From: Thermococcus barophilus MP
Lineage (GTDB): Archaea > Methanobacteriota_B > Thermococci > Thermococcales > Thermococcaceae
Assembly (NCBI RefSeq): GCF_000151105.2
Contig: NC_015471.1
Span: 1 to 54,159 of the forward strand
DNA: 54,159 bases
Direction of reading: 5' to 3'
Shown: piece after piece, positions 7,996 to 33,473 of the stretch
Layout of the letters: the number at the start of each line of letters is the position of its first letter
How positions within the stretch are numbered: the stretch's first letter is position 1
Program-made: the position numbers and the translations under genes
The notes under the pieces: generated by a model
What the model saw: only the letters and a program-made list of their open reading frames with translations
What the model was told of the DNA's origin: nothing
The model's database searches: none

Positions 7996-8104
7996 ATTTA
8001 GCCCTCCACTTCCCAAGCAAATTTCCACTTCCTAACTCTCGCTTATCATTTATATATGTTTCTCCATTTCCTGCATTTCTCATCTTTACAAATGTCGGGG
8101 GGAA

Positions 8105-16134: not shown

Positions 16135-17061
16135 TCAAATAAACTCAAATCCAAAGCTAATCAAGTCCTTCACAATTGAATGCAAATGGATAGAATTACT
16201 ATTCACTTCTGGGACAAAATACCTGACTAAACCATCATTCAGTAGGTCATGTAGCTCTCTTAAGAAATGCACTTTAAGCTCTCTTACTTGTTCTTGCGGA
16301 TTACCTTTAGATAGCTCTTTACATTTCAGTCCACCAAAATATGAGTCTAATGTGCCTACGTGGGATGTAGGTCTCTTATTTTTCCCCAGACATTTTCCCC
16401 ATAGATGAATGCTCATTATATATCCCCTTATTGGGTATAGCTCTTTGAAAATCTGAGATATTCTCTTTTTTGAAAATCTGCCAATTTCCATGTTGTGAGC
16501 TGAAAATAGTTGTGGTATGTCTAAAGCAATTCTCAATTTTAGCTCACGTGTTTCTATTAGCTTTGTCAGCTTCTTTAAATCGTACGTAGTTGAGAGTATG
16601 AAATTGCCACCATGATATTGTGTTCCATACCTATTTTCGATGAATATCTGCACATCCGGATACTTGTTTAGGATTTCTCTTTCGAACTTTTCATAGAGGT
16701 CCACGAAATGACTTAAATTTTTACAGTAATCATTGAATGGTGGATGTATTTCAATTATTTTTGGCGGTCTTTTCTCACCTACAAGCCTGAAAATAAAAAC
16801 AATAAAGTCCCCCACCCAGTCTTCATCAAACCATAATTTGGGTACCCCTCTTTTATCTGCTCTCTTTATCCCTATTAACCCTTTGCAAGCAGGAGAGGTA
16901 AATTTTCGTGGATAATATGAGTATTCCGTGTGAAGTGAATAGTCAAAGTTGCAGGGTATTTTTGTTTTACTATCAAAATGAGCTGGGATTTCCTTGATCT
17001 TGGGTTTGATTCCATAGGGATATCTCTTGTTCCCATAGAGTATTGGTATAAGCTTAACCAT
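16135..17061 (-). CDS. Xylose isomerase-like TIM-barrel protein
   Basis: 308 residues. The pattern IIEIHPPFNDY, QIFIENRYG, RIALDIPQLFSAH, MSIHLWGK and HVGTLDSYFGG fits the AP endonuclease 2/xylose isomerase-like barrel, with Glu, Asp and His at metal-ligand positions. Substrate unknown. It has its own promoter (TATA ACTTATAAAAA near 17086-17096) and lies just downstream of mcrB. Its last 24 bp recur exactly at 28493-28516, see the relic there. Confidence 0.72.
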   Translation of the reverse strand: MVKLIPILYGNKRYPYGIKPKIKEIPAHFDSKTKIPCNFDYSLHTEYSYYPRKFTSPACKGLIGIKRADKRGVPKLWFDEDWVGDFIVFIFRLVGEKRPPKIIEIHPPFNDYCKNLSHFVDLYEKFEREILNKYPDVQIFIENRYGTQYHGGNFILSTTYDLKKLTKLIETRELKLRIALDIPQLFSAHNMEIGRFSKKRISQIFKELYPIRGYIMSIHLWGKCLGKNKRPTSHVGTLDSYFGGLKCKELSKGNPQEQVRELKVHFLRELHDLLNDGLVRYFVPEVNSNSIHLHSIVKDLISFGFEFI

Positions 17062-17185: not shown

Positions 17186-20062
17186 TCAACTAAAGGATGC
17201 AAAGCCAATCTCATAGAGCTGTCTGAGCATTCTAAGAACTTTTTTGGCTGTGTGTTGGAGTGTATAGTTGCTAGTAGAATTTGCAAGTACTTTAACCACC
17301 ACATCACTCTTGTTCTGTATGTTCTCAGTCTCAAATACCTCTTTGAATAGTTCGTCAACATCTTTGTCGGCGTCTTTTTCATCAAGCATCCCTTTCTTTG
17401 CGAGCTTAAGAACAAGCAGTAATGGTTTCTCAAGCTTCTTTCTGTTGCCGTGGAATTTTGGAAGTATTTTCATAAGAAGTGCAAGGTCGAAAATTTCATT
17501 GTTAACTTTATTTTCATCATTATTATTTTCAAACTCTATTATTCTTGCTTTCCAGCTTTCTTTTGCGTTTTCGAAGAACAAAGCAATCTCATCAACTACT
17601 CTGTAACCAAAGTGCAAGTCGTATGGCTCGAGGGTCTTGTTGAGTTGCTGGAGTATTTGCCAGTATTTTCCATTGCCAGCGTTTTTGAGCTCTTTAAGGG
17701 CTTCTTCAATATCGCTTTTTGCTAGGCCATCTTTTCCTTTCTTGTAAACTGTTAAGAATTTCCCACTCCTTCTTAGATCATCAAGGACTCTCTTTCTTAA
17801 ATTTTCAAGTTCTTCCTGCGATAACTTGGCTTCCTCTGGAGGGTAACCTTCAAGATCCACATCATGGAACTCTATTGTAAACGCTCTATCGAGAACCTTA
17901 GGGCTGAACATGTAAGTTGTTTCGTCTATATTCACCGTACCTATTATGTATAGGTTTGGCGGGAGTTTGAGTTCTTTGGGAATGCCTTGCTCTTCTACAA
18001 CTTTATCAACATCGTGGAGCTTTATGCTCTCTCTCGTGAAACCGCTATCATCTCTGCCGCTCTCAAGGACGCTGAGGAAGTCGGCGAAGTAATATTCGAC
18101 GTGAGCAAGGTTCATCTCGTCGAGAATGATGAAGTAGGGCATGGCTTTTTCTCTGTTCTGTTCATAATCTTTGATTGCCCTTAGGATGAATTCTAAGAGA
18201 GGAGTTTTGTAATATTTGCCATCTAACGGGTTGTAGTAGCCAAGCAAAGGCTTTGAATCTCTCCAATCTGGGCGGACGGAGAGGAAGATGTGATTACTAA
18301 TCTTAGGCATGCAATCTTTTGGAGCTTTGACCTTGATGAACCCTCCACCACTCATGTCACTACTCCTAGCTGGTCGTTCTTTTTCAACATCCCAAAATTG
18401 TGATACACTTCTATCACACTCTATGACCTTTATAGCTTTTAAGAAAATGTCATGCTCTTTGATGTAGTCCTCTACAGTCTCATCATAAACCCTTTTAACC
18501 CATTTCATACCTTTTTTCCAGCTTTCTGGCAATTCTTTTTCTTCTTTTAAAATTCTATCAACTATAAAAAGCCCGTAGGGAACCTTTCGATAGTACTGGG
18601 TATCTTTTTCATCACTATCATACACCCACAGGATAAATGGAAGATCAATATCTTTTGCTTTTCCTGCAGGTCTCCAAGCATAAATCACGTATCCAATTTC
18701 TTCAATTGTTTTTTCAATTGCCTTGATTTCCTCTTCAGCTTTCGTATTTGGACCTGATGCAACCATTAATTGAGGGATTTTATCCCCTGCTAATCTATCT
18801 TCTAAAAGTTCAGCAAACTCCAAAGCAATTTTTGTCTTTCCTGTTCCACTTAAGCCTGAAAGAATTACAAAACCTTTTGTTTTTAGGGCAGTGTAAAATT
18901 GAGCAATGACATGATCTGGGAAGTGGTAACCTTTTGAGTGGAAATATTGCTTCAAATTTTTAATATTCTTCGAATCTGAATCATCTTTGCCCATAAATTC
19001 ACCCTCAAAATACTCCTCCAACACCCATTCTATCTTTTTAATGATGTCTTCTGCTTCTTGTCTTTTTTCATCTGGAAGTTCTGGGTTATTTAAAAGCTCT
19101 TCATGTTGTTGTTTTGCTTTTAAAAGGAGGTTATATACACTTTCTGGCTTAATAATCTCATTTTCTCCAATATATACTATCTTGTTTTGACCAAATTTTT
19201 TGAGTCCTATCTCTTCGGGAGAAAATTTAACATATGCCTCTGGAAGGAACACTGTTGATAATGTTTTTTTGCCCCTGAGTTTGCTTACAACTTCATTAAC
19301 TTCTCCAGATAGCACTTTGGCAATATATTCAGCATGCTTTTCCGAAATATCGCCCTTTTTTATTGCCTCATTTAAGTATTCTTTAGCTTCATCTGGAAGA
19401 ATCTCGGTTAGTGCTTTACCGGTTCTAAAACCCTCCCTTGAGTATTCTCCTTTTCCATAGAACCCCACAAGATAAAATTTCCCATCATCTATGTTTCTTG
19501 AAATGAAAATTACTAAACCCTCACTAAACTTGCCAAGTTTTCCCCTACTCTCAACGTGGCCATAATAATATTCTGGACTGAAGTTTTCATAGAAATTCCA
19601 CCATTCATGAGCTAACCCAGTCTGTTTAACGTACTCAAAGCCATATTTATCCCTTTTCTTAAATCCTTCCTCATCAAATCCTTTCCATCTGTTATGCGCC
19701 CAAGCAATATTTGCAACTATCCCAATTGTTTTCGTTTCTATTTGTTTCTCAGAGTTTGAGTCTCCAAAGAATTCATGAATCCTTTTTTTATCCCTGTTAT
19801 CAACAGCATATTTCAACAACCTTTGCATTAGGGGCTGAGGATTGTTGTTAATTATCCATTCTTTCAAGAGCTCATCAAACCCTGCTACATTCAACCCAAG
19901 TTGCCGTGTATACTTATCGGATACAGTGTTTATTTCTACTCCATGTCTTTTTGCAACTCTTTCTGTTGCCTCTTTTCTAAGCTTTTCTAAGTCTTGCTCG
20001 GGAGAATACATATCCTTAATTTCCTTAAGAACATCTAATATTTCGTCAATCCTCCGGGACAC
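17186..20062 (-). CDS. mcrB: McrB-like AAA+ GTPase with N-terminal reader domain
   Basis: 958 residues. AAA+ motor: Walker A LSGLSGTGKTK near 405, Walker B FIILDEMNLAHVEYYF near 660, and GTVNIDETTYMFSPKVLDRAF near 720, the McrB-type signature. In McrBC the protein recognises modified DNA and drives the McrC nuclease. The N-terminal region (about 110-220: NIAWAHNRWKGFDEEGF, HEWWNFYENF, FYLVGFYGKGEY) is aromatic-rich and resembles PUA-like EVE/YTH readers of modified bases; Thermococcus McrB is known to carry a YTH-type reader. GTG start with GGTGATG upstream, 14 bp after mcrC. Last gene of the operon. Confidence 0.9.
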   Translation of the reverse strand: MSRRIDEILDVLKEIKDMYSPEQDLEKLRKEATERVAKRHGVEINTVSDKYTRQLGLNVAGFDELLKEWIINNNPQPLMQRLLKYAVDNRDKKRIHEFFGDSNSEKQIETKTIGIVANIAWAHNRWKGFDEEGFKKRDKYGFEYVKQTGLAHEWWNFYENFSPEYYYGHVESRGKLGKFSEGLVIFISRNIDDGKFYLVGFYGKGEYSREGFRTGKALTEILPDEAKEYLNEAIKKGDISEKHAEYIAKVLSGEVNEVVSKLRGKKTLSTVFLPEAYVKFSPEEIGLKKFGQNKIVYIGENEIIKPESVYNLLLKAKQQHEELLNNPELPDEKRQEAEDIIKKIEWVLEEYFEGEFMGKDDSDSKNIKNLKQYFHSKGYHFPDHVIAQFYTALKTKGFVILSGLSGTGKTKIALEFAELLEDRLAGDKIPQLMVASGPNTKAEEEIKAIEKTIEEIGYVIYAWRPAGKAKDIDLPFILWVYDSDEKDTQYYRKVPYGLFIVDRILKEEKELPESWKKGMKWVKRVYDETVEDYIKEHDIFLKAIKVIECDRSVSQFWDVEKERPARSSDMSGGGFIKVKAPKDCMPKISNHIFLSVRPDWRDSKPLLGYYNPLDGKYYKTPLLEFILRAIKDYEQNREKAMPYFIILDEMNLAHVEYYFADFLSVLESGRDDSGFTRESIKLHDVDKVVEEQGIPKELKLPPNLYIIGTVNIDETTYMFSPKVLDRAFTIEFHDVDLEGYPPEEAKLSQEELENLRKRVLDDLRRSGKFLTVYKKGKDGLAKSDIEEALKELKNAGNGKYWQILQQLNKTLEPYDLHFGYRVVDEIALFFENAKESWKARIIEFENNNDENKVNNEIFDLALLMKILPKFHGNRKKLEKPLLLVLKLAKKGMLDEKDADKDVDELFKEVFETENIQNKSDVVVKVLANSTSNYTLQHTAKKVLRMLRQLYEIGFASFS

Positions 20063-20076
20063 TTCTCATCACCTTT

Positions 20077-21741
20077 TTAGGGTTTACAACTTAAATACCC
20101 AATTCCCTCAAGTTTAACATTATCTCTGTCCAATAATGCCCTTAAATCGAATTTTCCTTTGCATTCTTTTAGGTCTCCAATACATTTCTTGCTTATTTTG
20201 TCAAAAAACAAACTCCTATCCCCCGGATAAAGCACCACAGCAAATTTAGCATTTAGAGCATCCCTATAAGTGTGCATCTTATAAATATCCTCAAGCTTTG
20301 CCCATGTCTGAAAATTGGGCGCTCTTTCCATTTCTCTGTCCTCTTCTGCAAACTCGTTAACGTCAACAACATCGAGCTTAAACTTAGCGTCGAAAACCCC
20401 AATGATATTTCTTCCTTTTAAAAGCAAAAAGTCTGGCCTTAATGAGACAGAATAACCACGCTTTTTCAGATTATAATAAAGCCTCCAACCGTTATCAAAC
20501 TCTGCATAAACATGTCCTCTCTCAGATAGCTCCCCGGTTGGTTCAACAATTATTCTCAAGTTTTCTTGTCCAAGTATCTTCCCAAGTTCCTCCACAAGCT
20601 TGAAGAAGCACCAGTACTCGTAAAGCTTGGCAATGTCTTTGTTATCTATGGCTTTTTGCATTTCATCGAAAAACGGTGAGTAACTCCTGAACTCTCGCCA
20701 GAGCTGGAGTAAATCCCTGTATCCTTCACGTTTAAGAAGCACTTGAGAAGTGTATGGAAAGATGACCATCTCACCAACATCATCGAAAATATCACTTGTG
20801 GCATAGTATTCCAGTTCACCAAGAATAGAGGTTAGTTTGGAAGTTGCATTCTCCTTTTGCTCTTTTGTTAGATATGACGAAGTTAGAATTGCAGCAATAG
20901 CTTTCTCACCCCATGTTATCAACTCGTTGAGGAAGTGCTTGGCAAATCTATTCTCATGAGTGTCAAAGCTTTCATACTTAATTCTTTGAGCAACCTTAGT
21001 GGGAACATGATTGTTCAAGTATTCTGCAACTGCAATAGAAGAGGGCTCCGCTTTTATCAAGTATTCAGGATGGGTAATGATTGACATCACAGTGTCTTCA
21101 TCAACTTCACTTACTTCCCAGAAGTTTAGCCATTCTTCCCTCTCAACAAGTTTTCTGTGAGGACGTCTTATGATTTCTTCATAGGCTGAGATTATCCTCT
21201 CCCTGTTATTCACAAGAAAGTGATATACAAAGAGTTCGCTCATAGGCTCTTCGGATTCTTCAACTCCAAAGGCTGTGGGAGCACTAACCGAGAATGGAAG
21301 AGAAATTGATTTTTCGCTTATGTATTTGAGTAACGCATTGTAGAGTTCCTCATGCTTCTGTATAAGCTCTTCTGTATTCTCTGGACTGACGTTGTAAATT
21401 TTCCCCACTTTCTCTGAGAGCACTTCAAAATTCTTGAATTCAAGGGAGATTGGTTTAGTACCCTCCAGAATCTCGATGTGAGTCTTTCCAATGTAGTTTT
21501 TGAACTGAAATGTTGCTATGTAGGTATTTTCGTTGATTTTCTCTGCCTCAATCTTTTCATCTCCAATTCTTACGCTGAATTCTTTTTCTCCTATAATCAT
21601 ATATTCTTGCCATTCAAAGAGATATAATGTCTCTGCATCTTTTATTATACTCTCCTTTTTCTTCTTGGCTTTTAGTTGATATTTTCCACCCTTATCTAAT
21701 GATATTTCTGGAAGGAAATTTTTATTCCTGCTCTTTTCCAT
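20077..21741 (-). CDS. mcrC: McrC-like nuclease subunit (DUF2357 plus PD-(D/E)xK)
   Basis: 554 residues. The N-terminal part with beta strands and a helical segment (about 120-330) is like DUF2357. The C-terminal nuclease core has RPDFLLLKGRN followed by IGVFDAKFKLD (D...DxK) near 455-475, then a helix with QTWAKLEDIYKMHTYRDAL. It is expected to be the cleavage subunit partnered with McrB downstream. The nearest strong site (GGGAGGG) lies about 15 bases before the ATG, a longer spacing than in the neighbours. Confidence 0.88.
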   Translation of the reverse strand: MEKSRNKNFLPEISLDKGGKYQLKAKKKKESIIKDAETLYLFEWQEYMIIGEKEFSVRIGDEKIEAEKINENTYIATFQFKNYIGKTHIEILEGTKPISLEFKNFEVLSEKVGKIYNVSPENTEELIQKHEELYNALLKYISEKSISLPFSVSAPTAFGVEESEEPMSELFVYHFLVNNRERIISAYEEIIRRPHRKLVEREEWLNFWEVSEVDEDTVMSIITHPEYLIKAEPSSIAVAEYLNNHVPTKVAQRIKYESFDTHENRFAKHFLNELITWGEKAIAAILTSSYLTKEQKENATSKLTSILGELEYYATSDIFDDVGEMVIFPYTSQVLLKREGYRDLLQLWREFRSYSPFFDEMQKAIDNKDIAKLYEYWCFFKLVEELGKILGQENLRIIVEPTGELSERGHVYAEFDNGWRLYYNLKKRGYSVSLRPDFLLLKGRNIIGVFDAKFKLDVVDVNEFAEEDREMERAPNFQTWAKLEDIYKMHTYRDALNAKFAVVLYPGDRSLFFDKISKKCIGDLKECKGKFDLRALLDRDNVKLEGIGYLSCKP

Positions 21742-21779
21742 ATCTATATATTGTCCCTCCCATAATTTACCTCTGTCAT

Positions 21780-23207
21780 TTAAAATAACACAAATCTGAA
21801 CTTATCTTTTTCGGTTATGAAATGATTTGTTAGAACTTTCTCCAAGTTATCAGACCAGGCGTTCCATAAATCTCCAGTGAAGTTAGCCGGTATCGGTAAG
21901 TTGAAGATTTTTGGCTCAGACATGTCTATGTTGTAGAGGGCATACCAGAGTCTTTGTTTTTTAACTTTCCCAAGTAGTATGTGCGGCTTTTCGTTAATCC
22001 AAACAATGCCCTTGATCCTCCATCTCCAGTTTCTTCTCTTCATAAACCAGGAGAACGTAAGTTCTTCATAGCTCCCAACTAAGTAGTAGCACTCCTTACT
22101 CACATAGTTGACTTTAATACGAGATTCTAAATTGTGAGTCACACTTATTTCCCAAGTTAGATGTTGTACATTCCCACACTTCCCTCTGATGTATTCCCCC
22201 AACTTCTTCAGATCCTCCTCAACTTCTCTTGGGTAGAAGCTCTGTAGCTTTAGAGCATTTTCATTTCCAACTATTTTTGCAATGTCTTGCAAGAGCGTTA
22301 TACACTCCACTAAATCAATTGACAGCATGCACTCTTCTCCGTTTAGTATTGAGAGCAAGGCATCGGTTAGCGGCCACTCATCACGGTCAATCTGCTCAAG
22401 CAGTTTCTTAGCCTCCTCGGCAGTTAAATTTCCGCTAATTAAGTCAAGCGCAACCTTCAAAGCATAAATGTCCGTATTAGCATCACCAGTCATCTCAATT
22501 ATTCTGTTAATGTCGTCATCATAAAGAGAAGCATCGCCGAAGTCGTGTTGTGTTGAATAATGAATACAGATTGCGTTCACCATGAAGTCAATTGCTTTCC
22601 TATTCATGCCCAATTCAGCATAAGTGAGTGCCAGGTTATATAGAGTAAGTGCCGTCTCACGTGGGGTCATTGCATATCTCAACGCCTTCTTAAGCACCAT
22701 TAGAGCTTTCTCAGGGCGGTTAGTTTCATAATAATAGGTGCCTAATATGTTCAGTATTATTGAATAATCTTTTGGAATAACGCCGAGCTTCATGACCTTT
22801 TCTCCAAGCTCAACGGCCAGCTTTAAGTATTTTTCAGCCTTCTCAGGATTATTTTGCTGTGAAAGGTAAATCAAAGATACCGAGGTAGCGATATTAGAAG
22901 CCTTGATGTAATATTTTGTGACTAATTTTTTGTAAGTAGGGCTTTTAGAAGAGGTACCAAAATACTCATCCAAAAACGCCTCAACTTCATTTTTGCTACC
23001 CTTTTTAGATCTTTTCTCGTAGTATTCAGCAATGCTGACGAGTAGCTTTATGTAGCCATCAGCGTAAAGAAGCTTCTCTCTTTCCCAAGCTTCCTCATAC
23101 GCTTTCTCAAGATCTTCCAGAGATTTTTCCGAAAATCCTTCTGCAAAGAATTCTTCAACTGTAATGCCCTCTGGCTTTACAAACTTCTTAACCAACTCAC
23201 CCATCAT
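21780..23207 (-). CDS. TPR-repeat protein in the McrBC operon
   Basis: About 475 residues. Helical TPR-like repeats around 120-230, for example NPEKAEKYLKLAVELGEKV, RPEKALMVLKKALRYAM and ALTLYNLALTYAELGMNRKA. The C-terminal third is beta-rich with many Trp/Tyr residues. The start lies at the double ATG 23207/23204 after AGGAGG, overlapping the small membrane gene upstream. It probably acts as a scaffold or sensor for the operon products; no enzymatic motif seen. Confidence 0.8.
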   Translation of the reverse strand: MMGELVKKFVKPEGITVEEFFAEGFSEKSLEDLEKAYEEAWEREKLLYADGYIKLLVSIAEYYEKRSKKGSKNEVEAFLDEYFGTSSKSPTYKKLVTKYYIKASNIATSVSLIYLSQQNNPEKAEKYLKLAVELGEKVMKLGVIPKDYSIILNILGTYYYETNRPEKALMVLKKALRYAMTPRETALTLYNLALTYAELGMNRKAIDFMVNAICIHYSTQHDFGDASLYDDDINRIIEMTGDANTDIYALKVALDLISGNLTAEEAKKLLEQIDRDEWPLTDALLSILNGEECMLSIDLVECITLLQDIAKIVGNENALKLQSFYPREVEEDLKKLGEYIRGKCGNVQHLTWEISVTHNLESRIKVNYVSKECYYLVGSYEELTFSWFMKRRNWRWRIKGIVWINEKPHILLGKVKKQRLWYALYNIDMSEPKIFNLPIPANFTGDLWNAWSDNLEKVLTNHFITEKDKFRFVLF

Positions 23208-23355
23208 CCTTCCTCCTCTTCTCCACCTCTTCGCAAACATCAGCAAGGAGCTCCACCAATGCTTTCCAAAAGGATCTTCCAAGTGCCAAAAGGAAAAGCA
23301 AGAGCACGACCCAAAGCAAAAAGCCAGCTATTATTTTGATTGGCTCCATGATCAT
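23197..23355 (-). CDS. 52-residue single-pass membrane protein
   Basis: Reads MIMEPIKIIAGFLLWVVLL, then a hydrophobic run to LALGR, and a charged amphipathic tail (EEVEKRRKDDG). One membrane helix at about residues 8-30. The ATG overlaps the stop of the ADP-ribosylglycohydrolase gene as ATGA, and its end overlaps the TPR gene start, so it is embedded in the operon on the same strand. That packing is the main argument that it is real. Confidence 0.65.
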   Translation of the reverse strand: MIMEPIKIIAGFLLWVVLLLFLLALGRSFWKALVELLADVCEEVEKRRKDDG

Positions 23356-24293
23356 TTCTGCCGCCCAAGAAGGCTGTCAATGAAGGTGTTGATTATTTCT
23401 CCAGCGTATTCCTTCGCCTCGATCTTCTCGAGCCACTCTTGCGGAATGGCGCCAATTCCATAATACGTTCCAGCCAAGCCGCCAGTAACGGCTCCCGTAG
23501 TGTCAGCATCCTCCCCGAGAGAGATTACCTCCTTTATCGCATTGACAAAGCTCTCGTTCCTCAGGAAAGCCCAGAAGCTTGCCTCAAGAGTATGCACGAC
23601 ATAACCACTGCCCCTAATCTCGCTCCTCTCAACCTTGTGAATCCTCCCGCTCAAGACCCTCTCGTAATGGGCGAGCTCCTTGGCAAATGATTCTCTTAAG
23701 TAGAACTTTTCCGCTGTCTCTATTGCTTTATGATACGCTTTAAGCTTGTCCATTCCGTCAAGAATGTTCCACACGATCAAGGAGTAAATGCCGCAGCCAA
23801 TGAGCGCTCTGGGATGAGCGTGAGTAATCATGGAAACCTCGTGAATAAGCTTAAGCCTTTCCTCCAAAGAGTTGAGCTTGAAGTAAGCATAATACGCCGC
23901 TGGCGGGATTCTCATCAGCGAGCCGTTGCCGTTATCCCACTCTCCTCTACCGCCAGCCTCAAGGGGCGGAACTCCATTAGCAATGCGCTCTATTGCTCTT
24001 GAAGTTGTGTTGCCCTGGTCAAATGTATAACCCCTCGGCGTGAATTCGCCGTCATAATACCAGCGGAGGAAGTTCTCTGCAATCCTCTCAATGCTGTAGC
24101 CTTCCCTCAGTGCGTGGGCGGTTGCCAAAGTCAAAGAGGAGTCATCACTCCACAAGCCGTCAAGCATTGGGATTTCCTTGGGTTTTGGATAATTCAATTC
24201 CATCGCAAGCCTGCTGGTGAACTGGAAGGTTAAGCCAAAGGCATCTCCAACGAGGACTCCCCAGAGACCGCCTTCAAGCCTTGAGCGGAGCAC
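23352..24293 (-). CDS. ADP-ribosylglycohydrolase (DraG-like)
   Basis: About 313 residues. All family motifs are present: GVLVGDAFG near the start, GLWSDDSSLTLA near 50, NGNGSLMRIPP near 120, THAHPRALIGCG near 155, and the C-terminal GEDADTTGAVTGGLAG, giving the binuclear magnesium site. The enzyme removes ADP-ribose from proteins or nucleic acid. GTG at 24293 was chosen because GGTGG lies five bases upstream; the GTG at 24302 overlaps it. In this operon it may reverse an ADP-ribosylation signal. Confidence 0.9.
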   Translation of the reverse strand: MLRSRLEGGLWGVLVGDAFGLTFQFTSRLAMELNYPKPKEIPMLDGLWSDDSSLTLATAHALREGYSIERIAENFLRWYYDGEFTPRGYTFDQGNTTSRAIERIANGVPPLEAGGRGEWDNGNGSLMRIPPAAYYAYFKLNSLEERLKLIHEVSMITHAHPRALIGCGIYSLIVWNILDGMDKLKAYHKAIETAEKFYLRESFAKELAHYERVLSGRIHKVERSEIRGSGYVVHTLEASFWAFLRNESFVNAIKEVISLGEDADTTGAVTGGLAGTYYGIGAIPQEWLEKIEAKEYAGEIINTFIDSLLGRQK

Positions 24294-24295
24294 AT

Positions 24296-24637
24296 TCACC
24301 ACCCTTTAAACTCGACATCATCAAAATCCCCGCTCTCTACTCTCTCCCCACTCGGCTCATGTACCCACTTCCAGAGAATCGCCCTGCCAAACTTTGTATC
24401 CACTTCAACTGGCTTGTAGCCGGCGTTTACCTCCATACGACTAATTCTCTCGAATGTTTCTTCATCAACCTCGTAGATTTCAACCTTCAGTCTCCCTTCA
24501 CCCTTAACGGCGTAAGGAAGGACGTCAACGTAAAGGTCGTAACCTTCAATCCAGTCCTCGCCAAGGAATTTACTCTCCCTTAAATAGTCGTGCAACGGTT
24601 TGCCTTTCCTCAAGGTGCCGTAAACTGCTATCTTCAT
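24296..24637 (-). CDS. Gamma-glutamylcyclotransferase-like protein
   Basis: 113 residues. MKIAVYGTLRKGKPLHDYL is the signature YGTLRxG of the GGCT/AIG2 fold. The expected catalytic Glu is probably in MEVNAGYKPVEV (near 71-82). The family cleaves gamma-glutamyl amines by cyclisation. The start at 24637 has GAGGAG five bases upstream, formed by the end of the amidotransferase gene; a GTG six bases earlier overlaps that stop. Confidence 0.85.
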   Translation of the reverse strand: MKIAVYGTLRKGKPLHDYLRESKFLGEDWIEGYDLYVDVLPYAVKGEGRLKVEIYEVDEETFERISRMEVNAGYKPVEVDTKFGRAILWKWVHEPSGERVESGDFDDVEFKGW

Positions 24638-24639
24638 AA

Positions 24640-25608
24640 TCACTCCTCTACAATCAGTTTGACTATTGCCTCCCTGTAATCGTTTATTACAGCCCCACTC
24701 TCGGTGATTTTCAGGAGTTTTAAGTCCACAAGCCGCTTGACTGTCTCGTTGAGCTCAACGTTCTCTCTATTCAAAACCGCTCTGAGGACTTCTATGGCTT
24801 CGCTGTCGAGCATTGGCTCGATTCTGTTTCCTACCTTGAGCAATAAGGCACCATCCCTGAAGATGTAGAGCTTCTTTTTTTCTATCTTTTCCCAGTTTTC
24901 GTCTGTGAGCCTTTTTGTTGCCACAAGGTAAGCATACTCATCCTCGGCTTTTACGTCTCCAATTGAAACTTCAAAATCTTCGTCAAGGAGCCTTGCGCGA
25001 CCCTTATGTGGTGGATGACGCTTCAGCAGCCACATGCCTTTACCGGGATAATAACTGTAGGCAAAGAGGTACCTCCCATTGCTTATCAGAACATTCAGCG
25101 TGCCGTAATCACTGAGCTCGCTCAAAAGCTGGTAGAGTTTGGTAAAGAGTTCTCTTATTGTTCTTATCCCCTCCAGGTTTTCCATTATGTAGCAGAATGC
25201 TGCCTCTGAGTCTGTTGTTCCTAAAGGCTTGAAGCGCCTGGGCAGTTCTTCAACACCATCAAGCACTCCATTGTGGGCGAAAATCCACTCATCGTACTGA
25301 CCGATGCTTTTAATCCTCCTAATGAAAGGGTGAGTGTTCAGGTAGTTGATTTCACTAGTAGCAAATCTTACGTGGCTTATGATGACTTGGCTCTTTATGT
25401 TAAGCTTTGGGAGTGTGAGGGCAATTCTGCTTTTGTAAGCTGGAATCGGTTGCTTTACCAGTGAAGCGGCCCTTTTTCCGTGGAGGGCTGTTAAATACCA
25501 GCCAACGCCCCAGCCGTGAGGATTAAGCTTGCCTTTCCTCACGAAGCCCCGCCACGTAAAGTTGACATCTACTTCTTTGTTTGCGTTAACTCCAAAGAGT
25601 TCACACAT
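24640..25608 (-). CDS. Class II glutamine amidotransferase
   Basis: 322 residues. MCELFGVNAN places the nucleophile Cys at residue 2. HGWGVGWYL, SHVRFAT, FAHNGVL and GTTDSEA are the glutamine-pocket and oxyanion motifs of Ntn-type GATases (YafJ-like). No synthase domain is attached, so it would be a stand-alone glutaminase or amide transferase. Next to a gamma-glutamylcyclotransferase-like gene, it suggests chemistry on a gamma-glutamyl or amide substrate. The C-terminal 80 residues include a winged-helix-like segment. Confidence 0.88.
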   Translation of the reverse strand: MCELFGVNANKEVDVNFTWRGFVRKGKLNPHGWGVGWYLTALHGKRAASLVKQPIPAYKSRIALTLPKLNIKSQVIISHVRFATSEINYLNTHPFIRRIKSIGQYDEWIFAHNGVLDGVEELPRRFKPLGTTDSEAAFCYIMENLEGIRTIRELFTKLYQLLSELSDYGTLNVLISNGRYLFAYSYYPGKGMWLLKRHPPHKGRARLLDEDFEVSIGDVKAEDEYAYLVATKRLTDENWEKIEKKKLYIFRDGALLLKVGNRIEPMLDSEAIEVLRAVLNRENVELNETVKRLVDLKLLKITESGAVINDYREAIVKLIVEE

Positions 25609-25617
25609 ATCTATCCC

Positions 25618-26868
25618 TCACGGCACTACTTCGTAAATCCTAATTGCTATCTCTTTGTTTCCGAGTTTTAGGTCTCTCCGAAATCTGCAGATTACTGTAG
25701 GCTCTGGAAAGTCTTCTTTTTCAGTTATTCTCTTTAATTGCCTAACGAAGGTTACGGGCTTTCTAATCAAGTACTCTCGGGTAACTTTGAATCCGGTGTT
25801 TTCCTTTAAGCTGATGAATGGTTCGTATCCACGAGCAGGGTTGCTGAGATAGCTAACCATGTGTTCATCAGCAACGTAGACAAAGTACCTCTTGATATTG
25901 CCCTGCTCTTTTCTAAAGAGGGCAAGTTTGAGGATGTCGGCGAACACAGCTCCAGCATTGTCCGGTTTGGGCATGGCGTTATTACCAATCTTTTTTTGGA
26001 ATTTCATCTCGAATGCTAAAGCTGGTCTGTTCTCTTTAGGAGCTACAAACGTGTCAAGCTTCGCGTATTTCTTATTGGGAACTTGTGGATGCGGGTATTC
26101 AAGGTAGACATCCGTTGGATCAACTCCTCCAACGGTCGTTAGCGAGTGAAACATCATGTACCTAACTGTGTCCTCGCTTTCTTGGTAAATTTCCTCAAGC
26201 TCAGAGCGTCCTTCAGCTATGGCTTTCAGCCTTTCCTCTATGAGTGTAGCAAACTTTTCGAAGACTCTGTACATTTTTTCGTCGAATTCGTCCGGAGGAA
26301 ATCTCTTATTTTCTGGGAATATCCTATTTTTCTGGATTTTCTCAAACCATACTATTTCATCTCTAAGATCAACATGCCTAATCCTCCATCCCGCTTTTAA
26401 CCATCCATGTACTGCTTGAGGATGCTTTTTGTCGTTAGCCCACCAAGCCTTGTATGTCCTTGCCGCTGGTGGGAGTTCTTTCCCAATGATGCGTTCAATG
26501 TCTCTAAACCTCAGAACTACAGTGTCTTTAGCGATTTTTGATAAATATTCTCCAAGTGGGGAATACTTAGAGATTCTGGCCGGCTTATGGTTTTTTCCAT
26601 CAGAGATGTGTTTCTCTCTGTATTCTACCACAAACCCAAGTTTTTCCAAATATCTCGCTGCTTCGTGGCTTGTGAACTCTGAGGAAGGTAGAAGTTCCCC
26701 GTTAACGTATTTGTTGGCGAGCTCTACCACATACTTTACTGGATATCTGTTTCCGTTGTAAACCAAAAACCAGACCCTGAACCTCCTGTTCTTGGGAGTG
26801 CCATTTCTATCTATATCCTCTATGGCTTTCAACACGTGCTCCCTCAATATGTTCTCCGGGATGGGCAT
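25618..26868 (-). CDS. ScoMcrA-N/DUF7662-like PD-(D/E)xK nuclease
   Basis: 416 residues in three parts. The N-terminal head (about 1-85; FRVWFLVYNGNRYPVKYVV, ELLPSSEF, RYLEKLGF) resembles the ScoMcrA N-terminal domain of type IV enzymes. The middle (about 100-175; YSPLGEYLSKI, LPPAARTYKAWWAND, WLKAGWRI) resembles DUF7662. The C-terminal nuclease core has KLDTFVAPKENRPALAFEMK (D...ExK). The start at 26868 has GGAGGG six bases upstream and follows the previous stop by one base. Likely a modification-dependent restriction enzyme working with the downstream McrBC genes. Confidence 0.75.
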   Translation of the reverse strand: MPIPENILREHVLKAIEDIDRNGTPKNRRFRVWFLVYNGNRYPVKYVVELANKYVNGELLPSSEFTSHEAARYLEKLGFVVEYREKHISDGKNHKPARISKYSPLGEYLSKIAKDTVVLRFRDIERIIGKELPPAARTYKAWWANDKKHPQAVHGWLKAGWRIRHVDLRDEIVWFEKIQKNRIFPENKRFPPDEFDEKMYRVFEKFATLIEERLKAIAEGRSELEEIYQESEDTVRYMMFHSLTTVGGVDPTDVYLEYPHPQVPNKKYAKLDTFVAPKENRPALAFEMKFQKKIGNNAMPKPDNAGAVFADILKLALFRKEQGNIKRYFVYVADEHMVSYLSNPARGYEPFISLKENTGFKVTREYLIRKPVTFVRQLKRITEKEDFPEPTVICRFRRDLKLGNKEIAIRIYEVVP

Positions 26869-26869
26869 G

Positions 26870-28411
26870 TCAAACCCTCCAGCTTTCCCCATTCTTTAAA
26901 ACAACAGCCTCTTCACCCCAATTTTCCCTGAACCATTCGAGCTTTTCTGTGTGAACTGGAATAACGTAGTCCGGATCAATTTCTTCAATTACTTCTCTCA
27001 ACTCTTCCCTGGAAATGTGTCCAGAGGCGTGAAGTCCTTTCTCAAAAATTGGCATTCCATACTTATCTACCTCAAACCCGTGAACTTCAAAACCGAAATA
27101 CTGTAGCCAGTTCCATAGGCGGAGAAAGCTAAAGACCTGTTCTTCTCCAAAAGCCTCACTGGAGGAGTAAATGTAAGTCCCGCCATCAGGCATTATGTCA
27201 AGCAGATGAGGCATATCGTAGAACGAGAAGCAGAGGATGTAGTTCTCTTGGTTCTCCCTAATCTCGAAGGGAGAAATGTACTGCTCGGCATAATTCCCAT
27301 GGACAATTATGCTTTCCCATTTGTCCTGGGTAGCTTTGAAGTTACCATAAATCCTCAAGCCTTCGAGTCTGTTGATGCCATCAACCAGCTGGAGAGCATG
27401 TAGGAAGTAAGCGTCTTTAGCCGTAACCACGAGCTCTCTTCCAGTATTCTCTGCAATCTTTTTGAAGCTCTCGAGCCTCTCGAAATTCCTTGGAGAGAAA
27501 TCGGCTATCACAAGCCCTTTGGCATCTTCAACAATCTTTAGAGCATTCTCATAAACTTCCTGCTCTGAAGTGTTTCCATGCTCATCTCTTCCAACTCTCG
27601 TCCCCTCGGTTATTAGGACGCTTGAGTTCTTGGCTGCCTTGATGAACTTCCTTGTCTCATCTCCTTTCCCACCGTGTAGCCTGAAGTCTCCAGTGTAAGC
27701 CAAGCTGATGTCACCTTCAATTATGTAGGCTGTGGCTCCATAAATTGAATGATCCACGTGGAAAGCCTTGACTTCAAAGCCCAAATCTTCTTCATCAAGG
27801 GTTTTCACCTCGTTGGGGATGATTTTCTTGGCTTTTGGTGACTCTTGTCCGGGCCTGTAGAAGAGGAATTCGTGGAGAGGCTGAACGTATTCGATGAGAA
27901 CAATTTTCCTTGAAGGATAATCTGCTTTCCTGTCACTCTCTATGATGTAGCCTTCCGAGTCTTTTATTTTTCTGATCTTGTAGTAGGGGAGCTCAATCCC
28001 AAAGTGGTTGCCTCCCTTAGAAGTGTCGTTGATGGCTTTGAGGATTGCAATCGTTGTTGGAGAACCTACGATCGGAATATTTTCATCAAGCAGGGTTATG
28101 TTACCTACGTGGTCCAGATGGGCATGGCTTATAAGGACTGCGTTGACTTGGGGCTTTGAGCATTGGCTAATTTCTAAGGCAAGGTCTTTTGGGATTAAAT
28201 CTTTTCGGTAAATGTTGAGTTTTGGGATTAGGTTGAGCTTCCACAAGTCGTAGATTCCTCTTGAGGTTCTTTCACCAAGGTATTCCTCGTAATAAAGTGA
28301 ATATTTTGCGAAGTTCATTCCAAAGTCTAAGAGAAGCCCATTTCCGTTTTCCTCTATGTGGATCTTTGTTCCGCCAATAGTATCAGCACCATCGTAGATT
28401 GTTATCTTCAT
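26870..28411 (-). CDS. Metallo-beta-lactamase/beta-CASP-type nuclease
   Basis: 513 residues. MBL motifs: DFGMNF, SHAHLDHVGN (HxHxDH), a further His in FHVDHSIYGA, and AYTGDFRLHGG. The C-terminus HASGHISREELREVI, then YVIPVHTEKLEWF matches beta-CASP RNA/DNA processing enzymes (RNase J/CPSF-like). The first gene of the operon. Start at 28411 with GGAGGG six bases upstream. Substrate not deducible; the spacing suggests it is not the housekeeping RNase J. Confidence 0.85.
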   Translation of the reverse strand: MKITIYDGADTIGGTKIHIEENGNGLLLDFGMNFAKYSLYYEEYLGERTSRGIYDLWKLNLIPKLNIYRKDLIPKDLALEISQCSKPQVNAVLISHAHLDHVGNITLLDENIPIVGSPTTIAILKAINDTSKGGNHFGIELPYYKIRKIKDSEGYIIESDRKADYPSRKIVLIEYVQPLHEFLFYRPGQESPKAKKIIPNEVKTLDEEDLGFEVKAFHVDHSIYGATAYIIEGDISLAYTGDFRLHGGKGDETRKFIKAAKNSSVLITEGTRVGRDEHGNTSEQEVYENALKIVEDAKGLVIADFSPRNFERLESFKKIAENTGRELVVTAKDAYFLHALQLVDGINRLEGLRIYGNFKATQDKWESIIVHGNYAEQYISPFEIRENQENYILCFSFYDMPHLLDIMPDGGTYIYSSSEAFGEEQVFSFLRLWNWLQYFGFEVHGFEVDKYGMPIFEKGLHASGHISREELREVIEEIDPDYVIPVHTEKLEWFRENWGEEAVVLKNGESWRV

Positions 28412-28540: not shown

Positions 28541-29572
28541 TCAATACACTTCTATGGCTACGTCAATTCCGGTTCGCTGTTTGATTTTCTTGAGAAATTG
28601 CACAGTGGAATTCCCATCACCTGGCATTATTACACCAAAGCCATTTCCTATTTCAATAACTCCGGCACTTCTAGGAATGATCCTCTCTAAACGATCAATC
28701 TTAGAAGGAATATGCAAGTTGCTAATGTCAATCCCCTTCTGCAGGAGAAATACAACTACAGCTGGCAATAAGGTGCTCCACTTGAGCCTTGGTGATCTTC
28801 CCCACCTTTTCCCACCAACAATCTCGAGCCTCCACCACGTTTCGCTGAGTTTCACATACACACTTAATGGACGCTTACCTTTCAAATCCACATAAAGAAG
28901 CTCATCGATTGTTGGAGCATTAAGTGTACTTACCGGTATCCCTTCCACCTCCAGAGTTTTTATCCTTGAAGACTCACGTATTGGTATTTTTTCTATTAGT
29001 CGTGTTGAGCCTGGGTTGCTTTCTTTTAGTTTAGAATCATCACTTTGAGGAATCTCTACAAGCCTTTCTTGGATATTGGCTACGTTTTTGATTTTTTCCT
29101 TGGATAACCATGATAATCTTTTGATGCTTTCTTCTAATGGAAGGCGTTTTAGGTCTATGACAATGAGGAGTCTATCTCTTAACTTCTTCTTTGGTTCAAA
29201 TGCATTAATTACGACCCACTGGATGCCGTTGGTGAGTATTCCAAGCTGGACACCATCGCTGAAGCAGTATTTCCCAAGTTGGCTAAGTGCGTTGTGATCT
29301 GATATTATGTTCACGCCAAGGCTCTTGGCTTCAACATATGCTATGCACTCACCATTGATGTAGAGGGCATAGTCAACTCTGCCTCCTTCCTCAGTGCTTA
29401 CCTCTGGAATCACGTCTTCAGGGTTGAAAATATCCCACTCAAGTGCACTTAAAATCGGGAGTACAAGATGTTGTTTCGTGGCTTCTTCATTGGAATGATA
29501 AAGGGTGGCCCAAGAATGTGCTATATCCAGGACCTTTTTAATTGTTATCCCCATTGGGGTCTTTTCGCACAT
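28541..29572 (-). CDS. HsdR-N-like type I restriction endonuclease domain protein
   Basis: 343 residues. The N-terminal 160 hold a PD-(D/E)xK core of HsdR-N type: EEATKQHLVLPIL, GGRVDYALYI, IAYVEAKSLG (D...ExK), QLGILTNGIQWVV. The C-terminal half is unknown. No motor domain follows, so it is not a full type I enzyme. It starts six bases after the NYN gene, with GGGGTGAT as site, so the two form an operon of probable nucleases. Confidence 0.82.
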   Translation of the reverse strand: MCEKTPMGITIKKVLDIAHSWATLYHSNEEATKQHLVLPILSALEWDIFNPEDVIPEVSTEEGGRVDYALYINGECIAYVEAKSLGVNIISDHNALSQLGKYCFSDGVQLGILTNGIQWVVINAFEPKKKLRDRLLIVIDLKRLPLEESIKRLSWLSKEKIKNVANIQERLVEIPQSDDSKLKESNPGSTRLIEKIPIRESSRIKTLEVEGIPVSTLNAPTIDELLYVDLKGKRPLSVYVKLSETWWRLEIVGGKRWGRSPRLKWSTLLPAVVVFLLQKGIDISNLHIPSKIDRLERIIPRSAGVIEIGNGFGVIMPGDGNSTVQFLKKIKQRTGIDVAIEVY

Positions 29573-29578
29573 GATGAA

Positions 29579-30127
29579 TCACCCCTGAACACTAATTTCT
29601 TCAATGTTCGGGTAAATATTATTATCGAATGTAGCATTAAGCACACTGAATTCAAGAAGGTTAATTACTTGGTATCTGTTCTTGATGACATTTGCGGTAG
29701 AGTCTGGAAAAGCTGCAAAAAGAACTGTCCTGCCAAGCTCTTTTGCTTTTTCTGCAAGAGGCAAAAAGTCTCTGTCGCCTGAGACAATCACAATAGCATC
29801 AATTGCTGGCCTCTCATAGAGTATGCTTATTCCATCGACTATCATAGTTGCATCAGTCGTACTTTTTGGTCCGTTTTCTTTCATAGTAGAATCTGCTAAG
29901 ACAACTTTAATGCCCATTTTTTCTAAGTTGTTGGCAATGTGGGGATTTTTGAGGAATATGAATGGGTTTGCATAAATTCTGGCTATTGTGACTTCATAAT
30001 CCAGAGATTCAAGGTACTTGAAGAACTTCTTCCAATTTATGTCTTTGTCGAGATGTACTTTTCCACCAACGACATCCCTGAGGCACATCACAACATTTTC
30101 ACCATCAATCAACACAGCCGCCTTCAT
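29579..30127 (-). CDS. NYN-domain RNase (LabA/DUF88-like)
   Basis: 182 residues. AVLIDGENV near the start, STTDATMIVDG near 90, and VIVSGDRDFLPLAEKAKE near 115 are the acidic motifs of the NYN/PIN-like nuclease fold. The start at 30127 has AGGTGG upstream; an upstream in-frame ATG is in the operator. First gene of a pair with the HsdR-N-like nuclease. The promoter has the triple 23-bp-spaced repeat. Confidence 0.85.
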   Translation of the reverse strand: MKAAVLIDGENVVMCLRDVVGGKVHLDKDINWKKFFKYLESLDYEVTIARIYANPFIFLKNPHIANNLEKMGIKVVLADSTMKENGPKSTTDATMIVDGISILYERPAIDAIVIVSGDRDFLPLAEKAKELGRTVLFAAFPDSTANVIKNRYQVINLLEFSVLNATFDNNIYPNIEEISVQG

Positions 30128-30143
30128 CCTTACCACCTCTTCC

Positions 30144-30216
30144 GTAATATTATGCAAGCAGTTTTTGTAATATTAATCTTCTTCATTATGTAATATTGTT
30201 GTTATCATATTTAAAT
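30144..30216 (-). promoter_or_regulatory. Triple-repeat promoter of the NYN operon
   Basis: GTAATATTA at 30144-30152 and 30167-30175, GTAATATTG at 30190-30198: exact 23-bp steps. The TATA box (minus strand ATTTAAATATG) is at about 30206-30216, so the repeats span from the TATA box through the start of transcription to the ribosome binding site, as a repressor array would. Confidence 0.65.
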
Positions 30217-30254
30217 CTTCCGGTCTGATAATTTGGGTGATCATGAATATGATT

Positions 30255-31642: not shown

Positions 31643-33133
31643 TTAAAGCAGTTCTTTGAGAATAAGTTCTTCTAAGATCTCTTTTACTTTCTTTCTATGG
31701 AACAGTTCCAGTATTCTGACGAGAGGCTTTGGAAATGTAGTTGTGAACACTTCAGAGGACCTTGAAAATGCTGAGAGCAGATCCTTACCTCCTTCCTGTT
31801 TTACAAGCAGGTACTCAAGGAATGCATCGACACCCTTAGCAACGCTGAGAACCTCTAACACTTCCTCATCAATTTCTCCCTTCTCAACTTTTGCCTTTGC
31901 CTCAGCTACTTTTTCTTCACTCAACCCTACAGCCTCATAGTATGCTTTTTTAGCAATGCTCCTTAATCTTTCAAGATTCTCCTTAACTTCATTTTTGCTG
32001 GGCTTTCTCTTGAGAGCTATTCCATCTATCTTGAGCTCTCTTTCTGAAAACTCCATCCTAAATAGGGGTAGGGGGTAGTCTTCAAAACAGTAGGGCAGAA
32101 ATTCAGCATGCATGAATTCTTGACCCTCTTCCGGGTAAATAAACGGCTTGGTACCCTCCCTGAACAGTATCTCTATTTCCTTTTCAAAATTGTGGCAGAA
32201 GATACTCTTGTAATCATCAAGAGTTAAAGCTTCTCCTCGCTCAAGCTTTGCCTTTATCTTTTCAATAACATGAGGACACTTCACGAAGGCATCAAAGAGA
32301 ATCTTCTTATGAAATTTCAGCACAACTTCCGGCGGAAATTCTTGAATTGCTCGTACTGGATACTCAAACACAACATAGTGGAAGTCGAGAGTATTCACTT
32401 CTGGACCTAACCTTAGGAATATTTCATCATTCTCCTTGAAAACACCCACATATGTGTAGAAAAATGCTTCGGGGGTCTCAAAATCACTGGCAACAGTTTT
32501 CTCAAAAAGCAAGTCCACAATTTCCTCTGGAATATTATCTCGCTTGACATAGGCTTTCACGAGACGCTTCAAAAAATAGTGGATATGCTTTAAGTCGGAA
32601 ACACTTATCGGCTCCTCATGTTCATAAATTAGTATGTACTTTCTGCCCTCTTCATCCTCATTAAATGTCCTTCTCTCCTGCAGTTTCTCTAAACCTTCAA
32701 GAGACTCTTTAATTAGCAAGTATGCTCTTGGAGTGATTGTACCTGTTTCATTCAATTCTTCAATGAGGCTTTTAGCTGCATTGATCAAAAGTCTCCTGAG
32801 AATTGCTGACGGGGACGTCTCATGCTTGAGTGCCAAAGCATAAAGCTTCACCCATAAGGGGAACGAAATCCTGAGGGAGAGAAGCTTAGGTGTAAGGTTT
32901 TTCTCAAGCTCTTTGAGGTAGTCTTTTTTCGAGGACTCCATCAGCTCCTTTGCCTCGGCAAACTTTCCTTCCTTTACGAGCTCTGAAATTAGCTGCTGGA
33001 CTTTGTCTTTCTCAATAAATCTTGGCCTTTTTGTCTCAAAGTCGTAGTATGGTACTTTGTCTGTTAAGGCTGCAATGTACTCCATCTCTTGTAAGTTTTT
33101 GTAATTTAACATATTAATATCCCTGTATTTCAT
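31643..33133 (-). CDS. Large hypothetical protein
   Basis: About 496 residues, mainly helical, with no motif I recognise. The N-terminus has a charged coiled segment (KVQQLISELVKEGKFAEAKEL), followed by LPLWVKLYALALKHETSPSAILRR-like helices. Several Cys/His in the middle (FVKCPHVIEK, FCHNFEKE) could be structural. The start at 33133 was chosen because GGGTGA lies five bases upstream. TATA-like TTTAAATAC near 33165-33174. Confidence 0.72.
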   Translation of the reverse strand: MKYRDINMLNYKNLQEMEYIAALTDKVPYYDFETKRPRFIEKDKVQQLISELVKEGKFAEAKELMESSKKDYLKELEKNLTPKLLSLRISFPLWVKLYALALKHETSPSAILRRLLINAAKSLIEELNETGTITPRAYLLIKESLEGLEKLQERRTFNEDEEGRKYILIYEHEEPISVSDLKHIHYFLKRLVKAYVKRDNIPEEIVDLLFEKTVASDFETPEAFFYTYVGVFKENDEIFLRLGPEVNTLDFHYVVFEYPVRAIQEFPPEVVLKFHKKILFDAFVKCPHVIEKIKAKLERGEALTLDDYKSIFCHNFEKEIEILFREGTKPFIYPEEGQEFMHAEFLPYCFEDYPLPLFRMEFSERELKIDGIALKRKPSKNEVKENLERLRSIAKKAYYEAVGLSEEKVAEAKAKVEKGEIDEEVLEVLSVAKGVDAFLEYLLVKQEGGKDLLSAFSRSSEVFTTTFPKPLVRILELFHRKKVKEILEELILKELL

Positions 33134-33203
33134 AATCTTCACCCAATTGTAATTTAAGAGAAAAGTATTTAAAATTTGCTGGAAATGGTTTGTGGGTGGT
33201 ATT

Positions 33204-33473
33204 GTGGTTGTAGTCAGGGTTCTTAAACCTTCTGAGATCAAGGCTTCATATTCAAACTGGGCTGAGATTCTTGATGAAACGGGTTGGTGGTTTAATAATG
33301 GTGAGATTGTTGTTGTCAAGCAGGAGAACAAGTTGGAGGAGCTGAAAACAATTTTGCATGAAGTTTTTGAGTTTTACCTCGAAAAATACTTTGGACTTTC
33401 TCATGAGGTTGCCCATCAATTGGCCCTTAATCTTGAGGAGTTTGCTGAGAAGTCTCTAAAGAAAGTGCAGTAA
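33204..33473 (+). CDS. Small hypothetical protein, mobile-element type
   Basis: 89 residues. VLKPSEIKASYSNWAEIL at the start, then LHEVFEFYLEKYFGLSHEVA and HQLALNLEEFAEK. The His/Glu helix is typical of small proteins of archaeal integrated elements but I cannot name the family. The GTG at 33204 has GGGTGG directly upstream. Divergent from the gene ending at 31643. Confidence 0.6.
   Translation: MVVVRVLKPSEIKASYSNWAEILDETGWWFNNGEIVVVKQENKLEELKTILHEVFEFYLEKYFGLSHEVAHQLALNLEEFAEKSLKKVQ

Follow-up and report, generated by a model that had tools for sequence, protein, structure and literature searches.

McrBC systems, which carry out type IV restriction of modified nucleic acid, are usually described as two genes with a reader domain, and McrBC was reported to restrict incoming plasmid DNA in Thermococcus kodakarensis (PMC13385129). 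In the McrBC census, metallo-beta-lactamase (MBL) and tetratricopeptide repeat (TPR) genes were found only in CoCoNuT superoperons, and CoCoNuTs were nearly absent from archaea (PMC11090510). Li et al. (2016) read module III of the Pyrococcus yayanosii island PYG1 as a set for metabolism and for adaptation to heat and pressure, named plasmid pTBMP1 as its homologue, and reported nuclease-amidotransferase pairs outside Thermococcales in MJ1514/MJ1515 and others (PMC5126054). In our study, we analysed a window of 54,159 bp, which is the whole second contig of the 2,064,237-bp assembly of Thermococcus barophilus MP. We infer that the replicon is pTBMP1, as its size fits and the identities of its proteins with those of P. 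yayanosii agree with Table 3 of the same paper (PMC5126054). The window contained a minus-strand run of nine open reading frames (ORFs), from 28411 to 17186, in the order beta-CASP MBL, ScoMcrA-N/DUF7662/PD-(D/E)xK nuclease, class-II glutamine amidotransferase (GATase), gamma-glutamylamine cyclotransferase (GGACT), ADP-ribosylglycohydrolase (DraG), 52-aa protein, TPR protein, McrC and McrB.

This run may be a composite, plasmid-borne type IV restriction operon of three exchangeable modules, in which hydrolases strip adducts so that the nucleases can act, a reading that we put forward tentatively. The association of the operon with defence is considered highly probable. The middle enzymes are probably accessory parts of DNA-cutting defences, because in related archaea they recur next to DNA-cutting systems of different kinds. 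McrBC would here be one exchangeable end of larger operons, which add two nucleases, one beta-CASP and one ScoMcrA-N, together with three enzymes that cleave bonds. The same accessories have been gained by each of the two McrBC lineages that Thermococcales contain.

Recurrence of the accessory genes in Thermococcales

A total of 94 Thermococcales genomes were searched with the nuclease, GATase, DraG, MBL, McrC and GGACT. Sequence of up to 20 kb was extracted around matches, with all GATase, DraG and full-length MBL matches covered, and the neighbourhoods were compared by clustering. Within 10 kb, MBL was found together with GATase in 6/6 genomes, with DraG in 7/7 and with McrC in 8/13, and GATase with DraG in 6/6, against an expectation of 0.1-0.2; these pair statistics use the genomes holding both members and ignore shared ancestry, so they give an order of magnitude only. 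The co-clustering of these families was far beyond chance. GATase was present in 8 of the 94 genomes, every time within 8 kb of MBL, the ScoMcrA-N nuclease, McrBC or DraG. MBL was present in about 26 loci, about 15 of them with McrB or McrC within 8 kb, and the same-strand gene that followed it was a 143-aa protein (7), the nuclease (5), GGACT (4), ScoMcrA-N-McrB (2) or McrC (1).

The middle enzymes followed MBL in two loci (L049 and L053), sat between the nuclease and a DUF2357-type McrC in two (L031 and L032), came straight after a PF10117-type McrC in two (L040 and L061) and followed McrB in two more (L072 and L073). Wherever GGACT and DraG adjoined, they overlapped by exactly 7 bp (5/5 loci). 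In L051, MBL and GGACT stood directly upstream of a DISARM-like set of DrmA, DrmB and DrmC, which was named by eye and not by library search. The first-pass annotation, which was made from the sequence alone, had tied the middle enzymes to the nucleases, and the gene neighbourhoods bore this out: the enzymes were not confined to unrelated contexts and recurred beside two McrBC lineages, the ScoMcrA-N nuclease and the DISARM-like set. The other McrBC lineage of Thermococcales contained a PF10117-type McrC and an McrB with an NxxD motif (NTADRS or NTSDRS), and GATase, GGACT, DraG and MBL were found to adjoin both. The gain of the same accessories by unrelated nuclease systems points to a role in restriction itself, and shared hotspots could also unite them. 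The DISARM-like set of L051 was also found near McrC in L068. A family of 131-162 aa (c10), which had no Pfam match, mostly stood between MBL and McrC or McrB and was present in ten loci (L044, L045, L046, L052, L053, L055-L058 and L067).

Matches to the MBL profile at 1e-60 were confined to Thermococcales. Distant MBL homologues were found on plasmids of Thermus, Rhodothermus and Methanothermobacter, several of them among toxin-antitoxin, restriction-modification, CRISPR or Avs genes, and McrBC was absent beside them; homologues in E. coli and Butyrivibrio were uninformative. Full-length relatives of about 32% identity on such plasmids (L106-L110) lay in stretches several of which were rich in defence genes, Avs2 among them. 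The GTDB-wide scan with GATase returned one close Thermococcus relative (apparently that of genome G068), the others being YafJ-like bacterial proteins of 23-33% identity; the scan used two strict patterns, and the published Methanocaldococcus and Methanotorris pairs must have been missed. The phage relatives of GATase were few and YafJ-like. Neither the MBL scan of IMG/VR nor the scan with the nuclease yielded any relatives, and a plasmid search at the DNA level gave no match.

Layout, mosaic composition and predicted enzymes of the run

Nine overlapping or closely spaced genes had been claimed between 28411 and 17186; all nine ORFs were present and the junctions were confirmed from the coordinates, 7/8 being an overlap or a gap of at most 14 bp and all being at most 38 bp. 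The MBL gene (26870-28411), whose start was preceded by the ribosome site GGAGGG, overlapped the nuclease gene (25618-26892) by 23 bp. A 9-bp gap separated the nuclease from GATase (24640-25608), which overlapped GGACT (24296-24643) by 4 bp, followed by overlaps of 7 bp between GGACT and DraG (23352-24302) and 4 bp between DraG and the 52-aa gene (23197-23355). The 52-aa gene overlapped TPR (21780-23207) by 11 bp if TPR starts at ATG 23207, which is preceded by AGGAGG and is the likely start, TTG 23282 being the mechanical start only. The widest of the eight junctions was the 38-bp gap between TPR and McrC (20077-21741), and McrC was followed after 14 bp by McrB (17186-20062).

Upstream of MBL, two further genes were found on the same strand, 6 bp apart: one encoding an HSDR_N endonuclease-like protein (28541-29572; Pfam HSDR_N 4e-14), which contained D...EAK and ended 129 bp upstream of MBL, and one encoding an NYN-domain protein of the PIN-like nuclease fold and LabA type (29579-30157; Pfam NYN 3e-23), which starts at TTG 30157 or at ATG 30127 behind a ribosome site. 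The NYN-HSDR_N pair recurred in L043 with an identical 6-bp gap and 80% identity; there the HSDR_N homologue stood upstream of MBL, separated from it by one 144-aa gene, and a broken HSDR_N copy stood directly upstream of MBL in L042. The strongest site resembling a TATA box with its transcription factor B recognition element (BRE) was found at 30221, upstream of NYN, with a chance expectation of 0.03 in that stretch by a simple score. The unit is probably one of eleven genes starting with NYN and not of nine, so the start at MBL given by the first-pass annotation probably needs to be moved two genes earlier. A weaker BRE/TATA-like candidate (chance expectation 0.09 by the same kind of score) was present at 21790, ahead of McrC, and McrCB perhaps has a second promoter of its own. 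An ORF of 562 aa at 31643-33331 is possibly linked to the NYN module, as its family adjoined NYN in three loci (L032, L043 and L065). The gene downstream of McrB (16135-17061) had no Pfam match; a remnant of 37 residues with 81% identity was found just downstream of McrC in L043, and the gene may travel with McrBC.

The composition of the run was not uniform. The GC content at third codon positions (GC3) was 0.49 in MBL, then 0.47, 0.53, 0.54, 0.59 (DraG), 0.55, 0.44 (TPR), 0.39 (McrC) and 0.36 (McrB), that of the neighbouring genes being about 0.38. The MBL was closest to those of genomes G006 (89%) and G093 (82%), each with an HSDR_N relative just upstream, and was only 65-68% identical to the MBLs found ahead of the nuclease. 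Identity to the proteins of P. yayanosii was about 87-92% for the nuclease, GATase, GGACT and DraG, and McrC was nearest to those of G077 and G082 (75%). On these differences in GC3 and in best relatives, the run is read as at least three joined modules, NYN-HSDR_N-MBL, nuclease-GATase-GGACT-DraG-52aa-TPR and McrC-McrB. The earlier claim of a single nine-gene system was not supported in this form, given that the enzymes recurred in subsets, that composition and nearest relatives were those of a mosaic and that McrC had its own candidate promoter. The same differences would also be expected if defence-island genes had piled up by recombination, each module being selected separately, with no common mechanism for the nine genes. 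We consider such a passive mosaic improbable, as the order and the overlaps inside modules were kept between genera, and MBL was placed first, on the same strand, ahead of many different partners.

The gene identities given by the first-pass annotation were upheld by Pfam matches and by the Walker A and McrB sensor motifs. The MBL matched Pfam Lactamase_B_2/RMMBL and RNase J-type MBL models and contained HxHxDH together with beta-CASP/RMMBL motifs, as expected of RNase J and beta-CASP proteins; its HAHLDH and VHTE motifs were unchanged across 16/16 homologues. RNase J itself was rejected as an identity: the scores against full-length RNase J models were far under the cut-offs, and the MBL is therefore a separate family.

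The nuclease (Pfam DUF7662 9e-16) contained an N-terminal domain that matched ScoMcrA 5zmm_B (Foldseek probability 1.00, E 8e-3, 86 columns, 26% identity), so the ScoMcrA-N/DUF7662 assignment stood, and its D280...E295-x-K297 residues were invariant among 9 homologues. DUF7662 was also found inside large proteins (705-1448 aa) of other Thermococcales (L036, L037 and L038). The GATase was of the GATase_4 type (Pfam 3e-69; EgtC model 7e-13; PDB 1te5), with invariant N-terminal catalytic Cys2, N113-G114 and D133. The GGACT, of the GGACT/AIG2 type (Pfam 7e-15; PDB 1v30, PH0828, 4e-50), contained invariant Y8-G9-x-L11 (the YGxL motif) and catalytic E71. In DraG, of the DraG/ARH fold (Pfam ADP_ribosyl_GH 3.5e-70), the metal-binding acidic motifs S52-D53-D54-S55 (SDDSS) and D265/D267/T268 (DxDT) were invariant in 12 homologues; the nearest solved structure was Lmo0067 (8za7), followed by Tri1-type and DraG hydrolases. 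The 52-aa protein contained one predicted membrane helix (hydropathy 2.9 over 19 residues) and had homologues in L027, L028 and L047. The TPR protein (TPR_12 1e-9) was the usual partner of DraG, the two being neighbours in 6 loci.

McrC contained DUF2357 and a PDDEXK_7 nuclease of the PD-(D/E)xK type (Pfam 1e-36 and 1e-13) and was encoded beside McrB, the two adjoining in 24 loci. The PF10117 probe for classical McrC found nothing in this genome, because the McrC here is of the DUF2357-PDDEXK_7 type. McrB is an AAA+ GTPase (PADLOC PDC-M26A 4e-49) with Walker A GLSGTGKT, the Nx(x)D sensor motif TVNIDETT (NxD form) and an N-terminal domain that varies and that, among the loci compared, was found again only in L056 and L058. 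With their motifs intact, MBL, nuclease, GATase, GGACT, DraG and McrB look like working enzymes.

Other genes of the plasmid were a Cdc6/Orc-like initiator, the probable replication protein (6781-8028), a transcription factor B with which the plasmid might choose its promoters independently (33616-34521), a 1199-aa Eco57I/MmeI-like restriction-modification protein containing a methylase (765-4364), and a 745-aa NACHT (STAND) ATPase (43398-45635), whose GC content is very low (29%) and which is a candidate for a further defence gene.

Possible removal of adducts from invading DNA

EgtC-like GATases cleave gamma-glutamyl amides. The three middle enzymes all belong by sequence to bond-cleaving families, which act on ADP-ribosyl linkages (DraG), on gamma-glutamyl amides (GATase) and, by cyclisation, on gamma-glutamylamines (GGACT). 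Pfam and model searches of the proteins of the operon found no synthase, ligase or ADP-ribosyltransferase, and DarT was found in 0/94 Thermococcales genomes. On these grounds the erasing of a modification would suit the three families better than the making of one, and a host-made DarT mark is an unlikely substrate of DraG.

In the reading that we prefer, invading DNA would be shielded from restriction enzymes by bulky adducts. DraG would hydrolyse ADP-ribosyl linkages on the invader nucleic acid, and GATase, an N-terminal-Cys amidohydrolase like EgtC with no synthase partner, together with GGACT would hydrolyse or cyclise adducts of the gamma-glutamyl amide type. The stripping would leave a simpler modified base, readable by the N-terminal domain of McrB and by the ScoMcrA-N domain, after which McrC, the PD-(D/E)xK nuclease, HSDR_N and MBL would cut and degrade the invader, with TPR and the membrane peptide as a scaffold. 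We infer an antiviral function of the operon, an action of the enzymes on the nucleic acid of the invader and this order of the steps; the adduct-stripping role of the middle enzymes is itself a tentative assignment.

Restriction as the setting is supported by the McrBC restriction of plasmid DNA in T. kodakarensis, a member of the same order (PMC13385129). A precedent, by analogy, for the removal of an adduct is BapA, which removes glucose from glucosyl-5-hydroxymethylcytosine (5hmC) and lets the glycosylase Brig3 act, an ADP-ribosyl glycohydrolase ORF adjoining the pair (PMC13160076). The early clusters of LUZ24-like phages, which contain amidoligase, GATase, ATP-grasp and AIG2/GGCT genes (PMC3890496), are a possible source of amide adducts. 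DraG, with TPR, was elsewhere a neighbour of AGOG-type and helix-hairpin-helix (HhH) DNA glycosylases and of DUF6884, pointing to DNA bases as the target. Such neighbourhoods, in which DraG-TPR stood with an AGOG-type glycosylase, DUF6884 and a protein of about 285 aa (c22), or with an HhH glycosylase that has an iron-sulphur motif, were seen in L047, L049, L061, L063 and L064 (also L040 and L062) and possibly form a separate base-excision defence module.

The target of the erasing enzymes could also be a protein. A nuclease or TPR might be inactivated by ADP-ribosylation, through an enzyme or through thermal glycation with ADP-ribose, or by a gamma-glutamyl conjugate, and then be released by DraG, GATase and GGACT. 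DraG-type enzymes classically undo the ADP-ribosylation of proteins (PMC9503650), the pairing of DraG with a TPR protein is regular, and the closest structures, Lmo0067 and then the Tri1-type and DraG hydrolases, are consistent with such a switch. However, the company that DraG keeps with DNA glycosylases argues against it, as do the missing transferase and ligase of the operon and the lack of DarT, and we regard the switch as unlikely.

A metabolic or stress function is also doubtful. Here, the middle module would serve a gamma-glutamyl or NAD-related pathway or the repair of heat adducts, and would share the island with McrBC through mobility only. Six genes of PYG1 module III were co-induced at high temperature and at non-optimal pressure, and loss of the island slowed growth at 100 C (PMC5126054); the GC3 of the middle block (0.47-0.59) also differs from that of McrBC and the backbone (0.36-0.39). 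However, the PYG1 deletion removed 22 genes and its phenotype is not assigned to any of them, the enzymes were found next to several nuclease systems that are unrelated to one another, the genes overlapping where they meet, and the middle module holds its own ScoMcrA-N/PD-(D/E)xK nuclease.

Several points weigh against adduct removal as the purpose of the operon. We know of no Thermococcales virus with ADP-ribosyl or gamma-glutamyl DNA. GGACT stood alone, away from nucleases, in 4 genomes, and DraG-TPR was found with neither MBL nor McrBC nearby in G023, G025 and G045, so the partnership of the families is not obligate. The N-terminal domain of McrB had no Pfam match, and its AlphaFold2 model (358 residues) had a mean pLDDT of 56, too poor to name the reader. 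The growth defect of the PYG1 deletion at 100 C is not predicted by a purely antiviral role (PMC5126054), and in the Brig3 island the ADP-ribosyl glycohydrolase ORF was found to have no part in the defence against T4(5hmC) (PMC13160076). The broader proposal, that hyperthermophilic archaea use dedicated hydrolases to free viral or plasmid DNA of ADP-ribosyl or gamma-glutamyl adducts not known before and so unmask it for four to five nucleases, is a long shot; if true, archaeal mobile elements carry DNA hypermodified in this way. As McrBC deletions of T. kodakarensis are published, the reading is directly testable.

Comparison with described systems

The nearest published arrangement is that of PYG1 modules II and III, which contain TPR, a protein of about 50 aa, ADP-ribosyl glycohydrolase, GGCT, class-II GATase and nuclease beside McrBC, with the order unchanged and identities of 69-92%, whereas the McrBC of PYG1 is of the PF10117 type with a frameshifted GTPase gene, and MBL, NYN and HSDR_N are missing. 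The first-pass annotation had placed the middle enzymes outside known McrBC systems; this agrees with the text of the McrBC census, which names no ADP-ribosyl, cyclotransferase or amidotransferase association (PMC11090510), but the association itself was partly published in 2016 (PMC5126054). The PYG1 heat and pressure island can be re-read as probable defence cargo. No paper linking McrBC with beta-CASP was found in the library searched.

Like the type IV McrBC of E. coli, T. gammatolerans and T. kodakarensis (McrBC1/2), the operon encodes an McrB-like GTPase and a DUF2357-PD-(D/E)xK McrC in tandem, but it differs in NxD instead of NxxD, in the unrecognised N-terminal domain of McrB and in the accessory MBL, GATase, GGACT and DraG. 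The NxD motif suggested a CoCoNuT, as did the TPR and MBL-fold genes that CoCoNuT superoperons can hold; membership was rejected on architecture. In contrast to CoCoNuTs, the McrC nuclease here looks intact (PDDEXK_7 by Pfam), no HEPN or cold-shock (CSD) family was found by Pfam, and no Hsp70 part or coiled-coil was identified, with no dedicated coiled-coil program run. ScoMcrA carries SBD, SRA and HNH domains. The nuclease here shares the N-terminal fold of this phosphorothioate-dependent type IV endonuclease and contains DUF7662 and PD-(D/E)xK instead of these. DarTG differs from the operon in its writer, the ADP-ribosyltransferase DarT. The LUZ24-like clusters share the joint occurrence of class-II GATase and AIG2/GGCT but are early genes of phages, include amidoligases and ATP-grasp, have GATase_6 and not GATase_4, and lack DraG (PMC3890496).

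The operon, as we read it, resembles Brig3-BapA (and Brig1) in its logic: in that system an enzyme that takes off an adduct lets the attacker of modified DNA act on a wider range, and an ADP-ribosyl glycohydrolase ORF adjoins, although there other enzyme families take part, a glycosylase does the attacking, glucose is what is removed and the glycohydrolase ORF is dispensable (PMC13160076). If the enzymes of the present operon strip DNA adducts, they would be the archaeal equivalent of Brig3-BapA and could lead to DNA modifications still to be discovered in the viruses and plasmids of hyperthermophiles. To these described systems our study adds the modular pattern across Thermococcales, the tie that links the accessory enzymes with each of the two McrBC lineages, the NYN-HSDR_N pair upstream of MBL and the mosaic structure of the run.

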